A stretch of DNA of 64,000 nucleotides from Phycomyces blakesleeanus NRRL 1555(-) (lineage: Eukaryota > Mucoromycota > Mucoromycetes > Mucorales > Phycomycetaceae), in the NCBI RefSeq assembly GCF_001638985.1, contig NW_017265135.1, positions 1,107,223 through 1,171,222 on the forward strand, given 5' to 3'. Of this stretch, positions 47,119-54,014 are shown piece by piece; position 1 is the stretch's first letter, and each line of letters begins with the position of its first letter. The translations under genes were made by a program, and so were the position numbers. The notes beneath the pieces are model-generated. The model did no database searches. It was given only the letters and a program-made list of their open reading frames with translations, and was not told the DNA's origin.

Positions 47119-48208
47119 TATATAATATGCGGTTTCGACAGTTCTGGGTGCTTGACTGTTGGATGTAACGGTAGTCTAATTCTAAAAATGATTGGCTGTA
47201 ATAAATCTTCAAAAAATGAAAGCTAAGTATCCTAGCATATAAAGAAAAAGGGTTAGATACTCTAAATGTCGAGAGTTGGCCAAAATCTACAAAATCTTGT
47301 ACTTTATGTACAATTGACGGCAAAGCTCATATAAAAGCAAAGTCGAAAATAAGACATAATCAATATATAAAAAATTAGTTATTTGAATACCAAATTATAA
47401 AAGTTGAACTTAATTGCGGAGAATTTGGGCTAGGATACTGTATTTGTGGGTGCTCTAATCAAGTGCAGTATACATATGTATTTTGACGCTATGAAAGAAA
47501 ACATACCAACCAAGAGACATTAATGGTAATCAATAGTTTATTTTTCACATTGGTTATTATTGAATGGTGTTTAAACTACCACTACATCCAACAGTCCAGC
47601 ATCCAGAACTGGTGAAACACCCTATAAGGTAAAGCTCCTTGGATTGAAAATCTAATATATTATCAGCTAACGCTATAATAGTACATGTATTATGAGAAAA
47701 GCATAGTTTTACAATCTTGAGACGGGCTGTGTTGGTTTGTGTAAAGAAGTGACCCAAACAATTAATAGAAAAAAGGAATATGTATCAATCTCCTCTAACA
47801 ACTCCTTAGCCCTAATATTGGCAACTGGCAGCTTGTTCTCTTGAGAAAGATAAAAAGAAAATAGAAGTGATGTGTAAGGATGTTCTTTATTGCTTTCATC
47901 TTTCGATGTTTATATAGATATTTCGATAATAAATAAAATAGTATAATTAGTAAGCTATTACTAAGAGGTTGGGATAAACTATGCTTTATAAAAAAAATAA
48001 GAGAGAGAAATAGAGGTAGATAGTCATTGTTGGGGTTCATTGTTACAATCCTTATGATTTTCAATTGATTGCTGCGCCAGTTGTAACAATCATGCTCTTC
48101 CCAAGATCATTACTTAATCAATTGGTTTACATAATTGATACCAAAAGGTTTAGAGATATGGGATATGTTTGGGCCAGCCGAAAATGTGAATATACACGCA
48201 ACGTGTCA
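47119..48208 (-). repeat. Left arm of a ~1.09 kb inverted repeat
   Basis: Its reverse complement matches 52926-54014. The outer ~970 bp are nearly identical (single differences seen near 47140 and 48060), while the innermost ~115 bp (48093-48208) carry many differences, roughly one in eight. The outermost ~490 bp is itself bounded by inverted ~40 bp termini (GTTTCA-CAGTTCTGG...ACTGTTGGATGTA), as in a MITE. Open frames in the arm (for example 47795-48064) are hydrophobic low-complexity and probably not genes. Confidence 0.85.
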
Positions 48209-48420: not shown

Positions 48421-48660
48421 GATAATGCTCATTGTCAAAGGTTTAATATTGCATAATAGTGGAAGACATATCATAATTTTGTAGTAATATTAATGCTGCC
48501 AAGTAGCCCAGATTTTAACTCTATAGAAATCTCATAAGAATATTCCACCAGAAGAGTGAAAAAGAAAAAAGAGGTTAATCTTCAAAAACTTTTAAGGAGG
48601 TGGCGGTTATTACCTATATGGAATAAAACAGCACTCGGGTTGGTGTTTGTAATGTTAAGT

Positions 48661-48741
48661 GCATGTTAATGTCTAATTGCATGTCAATTCCTAATTGCGT
48701 GGAAATGCCTAATTGCATGTGAATGCTTAATTGCATGCATG
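48661..48741 (+). repeat. 18 bp tandem repeat, about 4.5 copies
   Basis: Units of the form GCATGTSAATKCCTAATT, each ending in CTAATT or TTAATT, followed by a partial unit GCATGCATG. Confidence 0.85.
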
Positions 48742-49072: not shown

Positions 49073-50275
49073 CAAGACCTGCGCTTGAAGGCCGATCCAC
49101 TCAAGTTTACACCCAAGCTTCTCAACAACCCTCATTCCTGCCTACTCGGCATGGCATCAAATTTACCATGACGGCAAAGTATCGGTGAAATGCTTTAATG
49201 CCAAACTGCTCGGGACAGGTGTCTGAGACACCCAAGTGAACAGCATAGCATTTACTTAGGCACCTTAACTTTGCTTCGGGTTCGTCCCTCATGTCCAGTT
49301 CTGTTTACCAGAGCGTGGGTTACAAGTATCAAAGTCTAAGCAATGAGGGACTTGAAAAGCACAGGGATCATTTCAACAGGAAGCAGTAAAATACAGGCGA
49401 TTGTACTGGGTAATCTGTCGATTCTGCTGGGAATCTACCTGTATTACCTCACGTCCAGGTGCTCAACGAATTTAAAAAACTCTACGCATCCAGGTGATAC
49501 ACCCTTATACTTGCACCTTTCTGTGACAATCTTGACATGCCCCAAAGGACAAAATCTGGAGAGCCAATATCCAACGTCCTAAGAAAATAGCATAAAGCTA
49601 CCTCTGCGTTCCTCAGTCTTCTCCATGTTATGTGCCGCACAACACAGAAAAAACTGACGTGGATTTCATCCGGCTTTCGCCTTCATATGAGTGGCTCAGG
49701 AAGGTCTTTAACGTCCAGTATGCTCTACACTAAGAGCTACTTTCCCTTACGGTACTTGTGTTCAGTTGGTTTTTTATAAGTATATTTAGCCTTCGATGAA
49801 ACTTTTCACCAGGATTAGGGAGTTTGTAAAACAACCCGACTCATCGGAAGCTACTTAACACAAAGACAAGAACTCAAGACAAGGTGAGGGGATTGCACCC
49901 TCCAGTAACCTTTTCCAGGGAGTGAAGGCTACTGACTTGTTGGTATGTCTGGAAAAGCAGTTCACTAGTTCACAATCCAGAGCAGTCAAAAGACTACTCC
50001 GGTTCAAACATTGGAGCTTCTCCATCTCAAACAATAAAGTCCAAGACGGAATCCCTTTTGGTTTCTTTTCCACTGCAGTAAATGCAGGTAGAATCGCTCA
50101 AAGTACGGACCAATTTTAGGCCATGGTACCTTGAGCGAACTCAATGACTAGACGCCAAAGAGTGCAGTGCGTTCAATAAAAAAACCAGAATCTCATATTA
50201 AGACAAGCCTTATAAATAAGGCGTCTACAATGAGCGAGTTGGAAAAGAGCCCGGAGACTCACTGTTAAAGACCAT
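49073..50275 (-). rRNA. Highly diverged 5.8S-28S rRNA copy, lacking most of ITS2, truncated at the 3' end
   Basis: Read on the minus strand, this carries universally conserved rRNA blocks in the correct order. The 5.8S part (about 50275-50120) has TTGAACGCAC (50167-50176) and CACTCTTTGG (50155-50164). The 28S part starts with GGAAAAGAAACC (50060-50071) and AGGGATTCC (50048-50056). It continues with AAGTACCGTAAGGGAAAG (49740-49757), AGTTAAGGTGCC (49259-49270), GATGCCATGCC (49148-49158), GAGTAGGCAGG (49137-49147) and CAGGTCTTG (49073-49081). Sequence between the blocks is strongly diverged and shortened: about 1.2 kb covers what takes about 2 kb in yeast. Between the 5.8S-like and 28S-like parts only some tens of bases remain, so ITS2 is nearly absent. 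The match stops after the yeast ~1650 region of 28S. No 18S sequence is seen. It may be a pseudogene or a diverged structured RNA. Matches were recognised by eye. Confidence 0.75.
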
Positions 50276-50359
50276 GATATACACATTTTGCATGAAAATG
50301 TTTACGTATATTCCTTTTGATATATCGTGACCGATAGAATACGAGGTACTCAGTGACCA

Positions 50360-51341
50360 CTCCAAGAGTAGAGATATAAATAAAAATCGAGTATAAGGTT
50401 AATATACTTATTGTGTCAAAGTGTGTGCGCGTGTGCGCGTTTACTTACCTAGCTATTAACTGCGAAGGGTGTAAAAATACTGAGCTGGTTCTCGGTACAC
50501 CTCTCCATAGGCATACCTTTGAACACTATCAAGAGAATAAAGTAATATAAAAGTATAAAGTGAGTATGTTAATTGAGTCAAAGTATGTATATATTGACTT
50601 ACCACTCAGTGGACCATACATGGTATGAAGGCACCATAAAAAGAATGGTGGTTAACAGCTAAACAGAACTAGAAATTGCAATAGAAAAAAAGAAAACATC
50701 AAATCATAGTTAGCGTGTTGATCGTGTCAAAGTATGTGTGTATGTACGCGTTTACTTACCTAGTAAACAGCAGCGGAAGGCTTGAAAAGTACTTGTGCTA
50801 AAAAGCAAGACGGGACGGGACACTGGACACTGTGATAAAATAAAAGAAATATCGAATCATAGTTAGTGTATTGATCGTGTCAAAGCGTGTGTGTGTTTGC
50901 TTACCTAGCAGATAACTGCGTAGGGTTTAAAAAGTACTTGTGCTTAAAAGCAAAACGGCACTGGACACTGGACACTGTGATGAAAGAAAGAAAACATCAA
51001 ATCATAGTTAGTGTGGTGATCGTGTCAAAGCATCTGTGTGTGTGTATTTACTTACCTGGTACATGAACTTGACGTGAAGGGCCTCTCCGTGGCTACAGTG
51101 GAATGGAAGCTGGGCATAGAAGACAAAAAAAAAACATGCGCAAGAAAACACTGTGCTGTAGTTAGTATATTGACCGTGTCAAAATTTGTATGTGTCTGTA
51201 TAATACTTTACCTGCTATTAGACTGGACATCATTTTTGGAACTTAGCTAGAAACCGCGTCTGGGGTGCGTTTTCATAATAAATATCAGTATGGGCCTTAT
51301 ACGGATAGAAAGATATAGGCATTTAAAGACAATTTTCTTAC
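50360..51341 (-). ncRNA. Array of homologous spliceosomal-type introns between short non-coding exons, upstream of the rRNA-like sequence
   Basis: On the minus strand six intervals have ideal intron anatomy: 51110-51211, 50975-51055, 50830-50904, 50669-50759, 50526-50602, 50360-50448 (75-102 bp). Four start GTAAGTAAA or GTAAGCAAA, one GTAAGTCAA and one GTAAAGTAT. Most share a TG/CA tract, a block CTTTGACACGATCA, the branch-like CTAACTATG, a pyrimidine tract and an AG. A seventh, less similar candidate is 51260-51341. Intervening exons are 48, 54, 70, 70, 66 and 77 nt. The two 70-nt exons (50905-50974, 50760-50829) are copies of each other; the others are not. Exons carry stops and are not frame-compatible, so the product would be RNA. 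The last exon runs into the 5.8S-like sequence. This looks like one spliced non-coding transcript. Confidence 0.55.
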
Positions 51342-52925
51342 CGTGTCGGAAACCAAGGACCACCGAAAGGAAACCAGGAGGAAGAGGAGGAATAACAGGA
51401 AATTGGGAATTGTATCGATTCTTATATGAAAAAAAATGGGGATGGCGCAGCACGGAAGGCGTAAAATGCCTATTTTGGATAAATCAAAACAAATTCATAT
51501 GAAAATTAAATAGTTTCATGTTTTCAGTAAAAGCTCTATATTTTTTTAATCGCATATTACTATCAAGAACCTCTTGGTGTTGCCTAATAGATACATTGAA
51601 TAGTACCGATACTAAATATATTTGAGTATTACTTTGCTTTAGATATCATTTATATGTCTGGGGAATACATTTATATATCTTTATGCTCACACTACTGATA
51701 AGCATTATAATTTCTAAAAAACCGCCAAATAAATAAAGAAGGCCCCCTTAACATTATAACCACACTTTGTTTACTTTCACTTCACAGAGTATCTTAAAAG
51801 GCATGTAAGAAGAGAGGTACCACTATTAAAAATATAATAGCATGTATTATTAAAGCAGTTAGTATTTTATCAGTTTTCAAAGATATTTTGTTTTAAAAAA
51901 AATGGCTATTCAATTTTATATATGCAATATCTCTTTAGAACTAGAAACATAATATTCTTTCTTAATCTTGATTGATCAAAATACTATTATTATAATGTGT
52001 ACTCGCACATCTTAGTTTGTATGGCTCATTCTTTACAGAGTTATGTTCAAAGGCAAAGAATTAGTTATATAAATTTTATGGCAAGAAAGGCTTGAATCGT
52101 TAAGAAGAAAAGAGAATATATATTGATCTACTCTAATAGCCTCTTAGCTTATATATTGTCAATAGCAGTCTATTCTTTTAAAAGTGATAGAATAAAATAA
52201 AAAGAGGAATGTGTTGAAATAGTCTATATTACTTTTATTTTTTGATGCTTAAACATATATATATCAGCAGCTAATAGAATAAGACAGTCAGTAAGATCAA
52301 CTCCAGAAGTTTACTGAAATATTTACATTTAAAGTTATTTTAAGATATTAAGACTTGGAGCATACTATTTGCATCTTAACAATATTTCAAGGCTTGTAGA
52401 GATTATTTCCTTTACATTAACTTTAGATTCTATACTGGTACAGCCTAAGTATACATAGACAAGCTGGTGGCACAGTTGGTTTCGGATAAGAACTCATATT
52501 CAATTACTAATACAGTTATTATTATCCAAACTATCCAATTTCTCAATAACCTGCTATCAGCTTAACTCAGAAAAATTACATAATCCCTAACAAATCAATT
52601 CAACAAAGAACAACTTTTACACACTTATATTTTCTTTTCCTTTCTTTTCTCTGGGCCTTTAAATAAAGAGTATTGCTATTTGCTACAAAAGCTGCAAATG
52701 TTTATCTTATATCTCTCTTTTTCTTTTTCTAAATACTTTTTTTTACAAACCCCTTACACCACACCAACAAACACAGCACGTCTAACAACTCTCATACCAG
52801 CTTATCTAAAATCATTTAACATTATATTTCTGAGTCCTACATTTCTTGCCAGATATTGACTACTATCATGTCTTTAATGGTGTTCTTTCTGCTGTTCAAA
52901 AGCCTTACTGGGGGGAAATTTCCAG
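51342..52925. other. A/T-rich spacer between the intron array and the right arm
   Basis: No supported gene. If the minus-strand transcript is real its promoter should lie at the left end of this stretch. A minus-strand frame at 51247-51453 has no recognisable domain. A decayed copy of an arm segment is at 52085-52205. Confidence 0.5.
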
Positions 52926-54014
52926 TGACACGTTGCGTGTATATTCACATTTTCGGCTGCCCCAAGCATATCCTATATCTCTAAATATTTTGTATCAATT
53001 ATGTAAACCAATCGGTTAAGTCATAACCTTGGGAAGAGCATGATTGTTACAACTGGCGCAGCAATCAATTGAAAAGCATAAGGATTGTAACAATGAACCC
53101 CAACAATGACTATCTACCTCTATTTCTCTCTCTTATTTTTTTTATAAAGCATAGTTTATCCCAACCTCTTAGTAATAGCTTACTAATTATACTATTTTAT
53201 TTATTATCGAAATATCTATATAAACATCGAAAGATGAAAGCAATAAAGAACATCCTTACACATCACTTCTATTTTCTTTTTATCTTTCTCAAGAGAACAA
53301 GCTGCCAATTGCCAATATTAGGGCTAAGGAGTTGTTAGAGGAGATTGATACATATTCCTTTTTTCTATTAATTGTTTGGGTCACTTCTTTACACAAACCA
53401 ACACAGCCCGTCTCAAGATTGTAAAACTATGCTTTTCTCATAATACATGTACTATTATAGCGTTAGCTGATAATATATTAGATTTTCAATCCAAGGAGCT
53501 TTACCTTATAGGGTGTTTCACCAGTTCTGGATGCTGGACTGTTGGATGTAGTGGTAGTTTAAACACCATTCAATAATAACCAATGTGAAAAATAAACTAT
53601 TGATTACCATTAATGTCTCTTGGTTGATATGTTTTCTTTCATAGCGTCAAAATACATATGTATACTGCACTTGATTAGAGCACCCACAAATACAGTATCC
53701 TAGCCCAAATTCTCCGCAATTAAGTTCAACTTTTATAATTTGGTATTCAAATAACTAATTTTTTATATATTGATTATGTCTTATTTTCGACTTTGCTTTT
53801 ATATGAGCTTTGCCGTCAATTGTACATAAAGTACAAGATTTTGTAGATTTTGGCCAACTCTCGACATTTAGAGTATCTAACCCTTTTTCTTTATATGCTA
53901 GGATACTTAGCTTTCATTTTTTGAAGATTTATTACAGCCAATCATTTTTAGAATTAGACTACCGTTACATCCAACAGTCAAGCACCCAGAACTGTTGAAA
54001 CCGCATATTATATA
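52926..54014 (+). repeat. Right arm of the ~1.09 kb inverted repeat
   Basis: Reverse complement of 47119-48208. The outer boundary is at ...GCATATTATATA (about 54014), beyond which left and right flanks differ. The ~490 bp at 53514-54003 has inverted termini (left CCAGTTCTGGATGCTGGACT, right the complement of CAGTTCTGGGTGCTTGACTG), so a MITE-like element forms the outer half of the arm. Confidence 0.85.

Follow-up and report, generated by a model that had tools for sequence, protein, structure and literature searches.

Dispersed repeats with LSU rRNA sequence are exemplified by the 28S-derived SINEs, short pieces that closely resemble the rRNA of the host, and separate RNAs covering part of the LSU are known from the fragmented LSU rRNAs of euglenozoans and apicomplexan mitochondria. 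Among fungi, lichen-forming ascomycetes have spliceosomal introns in their rDNA (Bhattacharya et al. 2000, cited in PMC8527467), and Glomeromycotina have dispersed rRNA operons (PMC10386755). Introners are introns that insert into many genes (PMC9860276).

The gene described here lies on the minus strand of a 64,000-nt window (the whole stretch of DNA that was analysed, in whose coordinates all positions are given unless another locus is named) within the 3,709,157-base contig NW_017265135.1 of Phycomyces blakesleeanus NRRL 1555(-); the genome searched comprised 53.5 Mb. The unspliced translation of a neighbouring gene matches PHYBLDRAFT_105884 of this laboratory fungus with 83% identity over 67% of the query, and a second P. 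blakesleeanus record with 98%. Similarly to the 28S-derived SINEs, it belongs to a dispersed repeat with LSU rRNA sequence; unlike them, it contains a 1.0-kb, strongly diverged half of the LSU in which most consensus pairs are kept, has an intron-rich leader and, in the window copy, is accompanied by inverted repeats. As in the fragmented LSU rRNAs, a separate RNA covers part of the LSU; however, motif searches revealed no counterparts for the remainder of the LSU, and canonical 18S and 5.8S genes are present in the host. The lichen introns are likewise short, of the spliceosomal type and located in an rRNA-related fungal transcript, but are described as lying within functional 18S and 25S genes in the rDNA array, whereas in Phycomyces a run of predicted sister introns occupies the leader of a diverged LSU half outside the rDNA. 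Glomeromycotina also carry scattered rRNA-type genes, theirs being operons, whereas the Phycomyces gene consists only of an LSU half and a leader of its own. Introners, too, are present as several near-identical introns per genome, but all motif matches of the Phycomyces introns fall in one gene family.

We interpret the gene as a noncoding leader with splice-signalled introns, followed by a last exon that corresponds to LSU domains I-II; we predict splicing of the transcript and regard an off-ribosome role of the RNA, as a protein-binding scaffold or decoy, as likely. We put the probability of this reading at about 0.45. Its extension to the family, under which some 30 spliced RNA genes with sister introns of their own would supply structure-conserving free LSU domains I-II as an off-ribosome decoy or scaffold for 60S assembly proteins, is possible and more doubtful. 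No spliced, free-standing LSU-half RNA was found in the literature searched, mostly outside subscription journals, and we rate the combination of a predicted spliced leader with a free LSU half as a new kind, with the function as a prediction only.

Table 1 Features of the LSU rRNA-like gene and its surroundings in the window
Feature	Position	Strand	Remarks
Left inverted repeat	47119..48208	+	98.6% identical to 54014-52926, inverted
LSU rRNA-like RNA	49073..50111	-	Rfam RF02543 model positions 1-1453; most conserved part of the family
Hairpin, 13 + 4 pairs	50094..50138	-	In minimum-free-energy and centroid structures; positions counted by hand
Structured stretch at the 5.8S place	50112..50359	-	Sequence not recognisable as 5.8S
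Intron 6 (predicted)	50360..50448	-	89 bp; ends in GCAG in the older copies L022, L024, L025
Exon 6 (predicted)	50449..50525	-	77 nt
Intron 5 (predicted)	50526..50602	-	77 bp; copies L022-L026 without aligned counterpart
Exon 5 (predicted)	50603..50668	-	66 nt; no detectable kinship to other exons
Intron 4 (predicted)	50669..50759	-	91 bp; copies L022-L026 without aligned counterpart
Exon 4 (predicted)	50760..50829	-	70 nt
Intron 3 (predicted)	50830..50904	-	75 bp; splice signals and conservation
Exon 3 (predicted)	50905..50974	-	70 nt; kin to exons 4 and 6
Intron 2 (predicted)	50975..51055	-	81 bp; splice signals and conservation
Exon 2 (predicted)	51056..51109	-	54 nt; gap-free in 25 of 26 copies (one of the 25 reads N here)
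Intron 1 (predicted)	51110..51211	-	102 bp; GT-AG, ACTAAC branch-like site, pyrimidine tract; retained in diverged copies
Exon 1 (predicted) and start of the conserved unit	51212..51520	-	5' end approximate, from the rise of inter-copy identity near 51520
Right inverted repeat	52926..54014	-	Partner of 47119..48208

An LSU rRNA-like RNA and its dispersed copies

The eukaryotic LSU covariance model (RF02543) matches the last predicted exon with 161 bits (E 4e-41; gathering score 50), which upholds the initial annotation in placing the introns ahead of an rRNA-type RNA. The match was obtained only on a short stretch (1361 bases) with laxer filters; Rfam scans of 14 kb and of the full window returned no rRNA match. 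The 3' part (49420-49073) by itself yields 89.3 bits (E 1.3e-21). In a first LSU scan, a nominal end at 1899 was flagged as truncated by the end of the stretch; with 373 further downstream bases allowed, the match nevertheless stops at 49073, which is model position 1453 of 3401. We take this position to be approximately the end of domain II, and the match to represent domains I-II; the catalytic half (domains IV-VI) is absent. Model positions 1219-1322, presumably the GTPase-associated centre by yeast numbering, correspond to 34 nt in the LSU-like RNA.

Among the 131 consensus pairs that are readable for 50111-49719 and 49339-49073, 112 are standard, and 38 of these are changed in both partners. 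When partners were shuffled, the best of 2000 trials reached 50 of 79 pairs (66 observed) and 32 of 52 (46 observed), which is supportive and falls short of proof because the covariance alignment is fitted to structure and favours paired cells. The paired changes could also have arisen within the ribosome of another organism, prior to transfer. Downstream of the RNA, at 48656-48737, there is an 18-bp tandem repeat, TAATTGCATGTTAATGCC, in 4.6 copies.

The rRNA-like stretch has at least 38 matches in the genome; 30 of the 38 listed, the window copy included, span at least 1492 of 1560 bases with 91-100% identity, and the same 38 include 12 head-to-head neighbour pairs. The leader and the RNA recur together as a family of about 30 scattered copies, often paired head-to-head, a fact that the initial annotation overlooked. 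The copy in the window is unpaired and is flanked by inverted repeats of 1090 bp (Table 1). Each of these repeats consists of two modules of approximately 500 bp that are separately present elsewhere (at least 77 genome matches), and the outer module has its own 48-bp inverted ends. Another copy, at locus L019 (4516-6360; C13:720515-722359), contains an internal partial tandem duplication of the rRNA-like gene. The centre of one pair (L026, 5302-8906) is occupied by a nested insert with a gene that, by eye, resembles a transposase and has two in-frame stops; three pieces of this gene gave no Pfam match. It was rejected as part of the family unit, given that the flanks of the insert join in other copies, with an overlap of about 4 bp.

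Conservation across copies

For comparison, we aligned 26 copies from 19 of the 20 fetched loci, drawn from the 38 matches listed; L027, from which no copy was obtained, and one partial match of L019 were omitted. Divergence from the window was computed for group A (8 copies), group B (4) and group C (4 old copies), that is, 16 of the 26 copies, leaving aside seven second pair arms, L019, L024 and L026. Conservation within the family is highest in the LSU-like RNA. In 18 of the 26 aligned copies, identity of the RNA part with the window rounds to 100% wherever it is covered, and the same copies show 76-92% on the promoter side (17 copies, the eighteenth being N) and 79-96% in the 3' flank (15 copies with data). 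In group A, 7 of 8308 sites are changed in the LSU-like part (0.08%), 194 of 1645 in the 3' flank (11.8%) and 497 of 3176 on the promoter side (15.7%), and identity rises from 90% at 51560-51521 to 100% at 51520-51481. Group B differs by 0.70% in the LSU-like part and by 22.7% in the 3' flank. In the old copies of group C, the LSU-like part has diverged by 3.8%, the 5.8S place by 8.8%, the inner exons by 11.2%, the introns by 13.0% and the promoter side by 24.0%, so that the LSU-like part changes 3.4 times more slowly than the introns and 6 times more slowly than the promoter side.

The 3' limit of conservation is sharp in groups A and B, where identity drops between 49080 and 49040, coinciding with the end of the LSU match. 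No drop is seen at 49073 in group C, the 3' flank of which is close to that of the window (8.6% divergence, below the introns and near the 5.8S place). The predicted splice sites are conserved as well. Across 145 intron copies, after setting aside those shorter than 45 nt or containing N, the donor GT is retained in 143 and the acceptor AG in 142, every loss being in L026, a copy with a minisatellite where the alignment is unsure; in six old copies, both splice ends are intact in all 28 introns.

These data bear on the possibility that the copies are silent relics, namely, old LSU rRNA pseudogenes in a repeated DNA element that are alike through recent spread and gene conversion and have no product. 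The inverted pairs and the position of the window copy amid repeat modules are in line with such an origin, as are the near identity of the arms of each pair and the divergence of the group A introns, which is just 1.5%. Because of this low intron divergence, homogenisation between copies apparently acts beside constraint, and the near-zero divergence of group A is partly homogenisation. However, the slow change of the LSU-like part in the old copies speaks against a silent relic. So do the conservation limit of groups A and B, which falls where the LSU match stops, and the intact splice ends of the old introns. Altogether, we consider silent relics unlikely.

Host rDNA, other ribosomal pieces and a possible role

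The host rDNA is found elsewhere: canonical 18S and 5.8S lie on contig C17 (L032, 3544-5723), apart from the LSU-like gene, and the 28S at the canonical rDNA reads N in the assembly. The LSU-like gene is outside an rDNA unit, with no Rfam match to SSU in the window and none to 5.8S in 50085-50365 at E<=10. The place where 5.8S would be expected is nevertheless structured: the fold of 50359-50085 has a z-score of -5.2 and was equalled in stability by none of 200 shuffles. A 5.8S identity was rejected given the lack of an Rfam match and the score against the host 5.8S, which was reached by 120 of 2000 shuffles. A predicted hairpin joins the 5.8S place (3' arm) to the 5' end of the LSU-like RNA, with a 7-nt loop at the position of ITS2. 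The leader shows a weak similarity to the host 18S, with a score of 35 that 5 of 200 shuffles also attained.

A second, divergent and fragmented rRNA inside a special ribosome, with its other pieces encoded elsewhere, would account for an LSU match that covers domains I-II and, like fragmented rRNAs, stops cleanly at the 3' end. The pieces that this explanation calls for did not emerge from motif searches of the genome. The sarcin-ricin motif (up to one mismatch) gave 12 scattered single matches compared to 43 for the reversed control, and the SSU motif 3 exact matches and 2 single inexact ones, the exact occurrences of this universal 18S motif being on C15 (once) and C17 (twice). For the peptidyl-transferase motif (up to three mismatches), there were 24 matches vs 3 in the control, 14 of the 24 being one identical string; these recurring matches were rejected as an LSU partner since, at the two loci checked, the string lies in a coding repeat. 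Furthermore, model positions 1219-1322 are replaced by the 34 nt mentioned above. No recurring partner for the catalytic LSU half or for the SSU was found by motif, a search that more diverged pieces would escape, and a special ribosome appears improbable. The coding repeat itself, 97.9% alike between L035 and L036 over 1.9 kb, carries the string CAGGGTTACCTGGCTTGTA, which occurs at 14 places in the genome, and is likely a transposon.

Because the catalytic half is missing and no recurring partners were found by motif, it is unlikely that the LSU-like RNA functions as an rRNA. Early 60S proteins bind the LSU at domains I-II and, for this reason, a decoy or scaffold would be the simplest use of a free RNA of this kind. 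Under this off-ribosome reading, a promoter, likely one of polymerase II, since splicing normally requires this polymerase, would drive transcription of the leader together with the LSU-like RNA, and up to six introns would be excised by the spliceosome. In the cell, the last exon would adopt the fold of LSU domains I-II and might then bind those ribosomal proteins and assembly factors that are the first to contact these domains. Competition for these proteins could tune 60S assembly or favour the persistence of the gene's own DNA repeat.

If this is the case, a domain-sized piece of rRNA can exit the ribosome, gain introns and a leader, and spread genome-wide while retaining its fold. The family would then be a natural test of the solo capacity of LSU domains I-II and would represent a new mode of ribosome assembly control as well as a clear example of sister introns multiplying within one noncoding gene.

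The predicted introns of the leader

Six intron-like intervals of 75-102 bp are present on the minus strand where the initial annotation had placed them. All six have GT...AG ends, a T-rich tract ahead of the acceptor and a CTAAC-type or related site; the pyrimidine tract was judged by eye alone. Their signals are somewhat less uniform than originally described. The donors, reported as near-identical, are GTAAGT or GTAAGC in five of the six introns, but GTAAAG in intron 1, and the shared block CTTTGACACGATCA with the branch-like site CTAACTATG occurs without mismatch in introns 2, 3 and 4, whereas introns 1, 5 and 6 contain degenerate versions. All six introns are visible in 20 of the 26 aligned copies, and in one further copy the first is masked by N. 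L022-L025 lack two exon-intron units and keep four introns (read directly in L022, L024 and L025), and L026 has lost splice sites and has a 54-bp minisatellite in its leader.

Among the best 150 of 191 matches, there is no intron-free (processed) copy, so that we infer splicing from the signals. Two matches on C35 (73% identity, query 118-326) that cross two joins were rejected as processed copies because their 230-bp span fits an exon-intron-exon unit. A protein-coding reading was also rejected: the predicted spliced product, including 1.3 kb after intron 6, contains no ATG frame longer than 56 codons.

The introns resemble one another more than the exons do. Compared with shuffles, all 15 intron pairs are more alike (z 3.7 to 13.3), whereas this is the case for 3 of the 10 exon pairs, namely, exons 3-4 (z 13.4), 3-6 (5.6) and 4-6 (3.5), the other seven having z of 0.1 to 1.7. 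The contrast between introns and exons noted earlier is thus real but incomplete. The same applies to the suggestion that the array is not a simple tandem duplication, which is borne out by exons 2 and 5, neither detectably a repeat, and is at odds with the kinship of exons 3, 4 and 6 and with an exon-plus-intron unit of 145 bp present in about 2.5 tandem copies. Given this kinship and the tandem unit, part of the intron array is ordinary exon-intron duplication.

If the whole leader were an ordinary tandem satellite preceding a repeat, and its splice-like strings were due to chance, the 145-bp unit would be expected, as would the long minisatellites in the leaders of L026, L016 and L027. However, the splice sites evolve more slowly than the remainder of the introns: in eight diverged copies, the change rate is 4.4% at the donor, 2.4% at the branch site and 3.2% at the acceptor, compared to 8.6% in the rest of the intron, in agreement with the proposal of the initial annotation that splice signals are under selection. 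Indels point the same way in group C, with 6.5 per kb in inner exons vs 20.3 in introns, the two being little different in group B (5.2 vs 6.4) and reversed in group A (9.0 vs 2.2). With exons 2 and 5 also outside any detectable repeat, a mere satellite is very improbable.

The intron relationships were followed through the whole genome with a 27-base motif derived from introns 2-4 (up to three mismatches, reversed pattern as control). There were 94 matches vs none for the control, and each of the 94 precedes a copy of the rRNA-like gene on the same strand, at a distance of 195-825 nt. Within the reach of this motif, the shared consensus thus recurs only in the leaders of one gene family, which gives no support to the view of these introns as a mobile class. 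Distant relatives of the introns could be missed because, of the six introns in the window, 1-4 are recognised by the motif and 5-6 are not. The least probable explanation, that introner-like elements, mobile introns entering many genes, here invaded an rRNA leader, draws on the likeness of all intron pairs and on the unrelated exons 2 and 5 and is contradicted, for close copies (up to 3 mismatches in 27 bases), by the confinement of the motif to one family, by the related exons 3, 4 and 6, and by changes in unit number that involve whole exon-intron units.

This variation by whole units among copies fits local duplication or loss. Most likely, introns and exons multiplied together within the gene through local duplication and loss, aided by conversion between copies; since no relationship of exons 2 and 5 to the remaining exons was detected, intragenic copying or conversion that involved only the introns is possible too.

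Several further features of the leader were observed. Minisatellites occupy the leaders at L026 (915-3292), L027 (7-2304) and L016 (6620-9787); those of L026 and L027 have a unit of 54 bp (2 x 27) in 44 and 43 copies, respectively, and that of L016 was seen as repetitive open frames. By eye, these minisatellites resemble the end of exon 2, and they are open in several frames across 600-1000 codons. Exon 1 is, overall, conserved in an exon-like manner, and by eye TATATAAA is present upstream of it, near 51677. A GTAAGA...TTTCTAG string within exon 1 (51340-51247, by eye) could be an extra intron, unrelated in sequence. Each of introns 2, 3 and 4 contains the string TTGACA-16 nt-TATGAT (near 51028, 50883 and 50730, minus strand), which matches a bacterial-type promoter at 11 of 12 positions, probably by chance, the host being a fungus.
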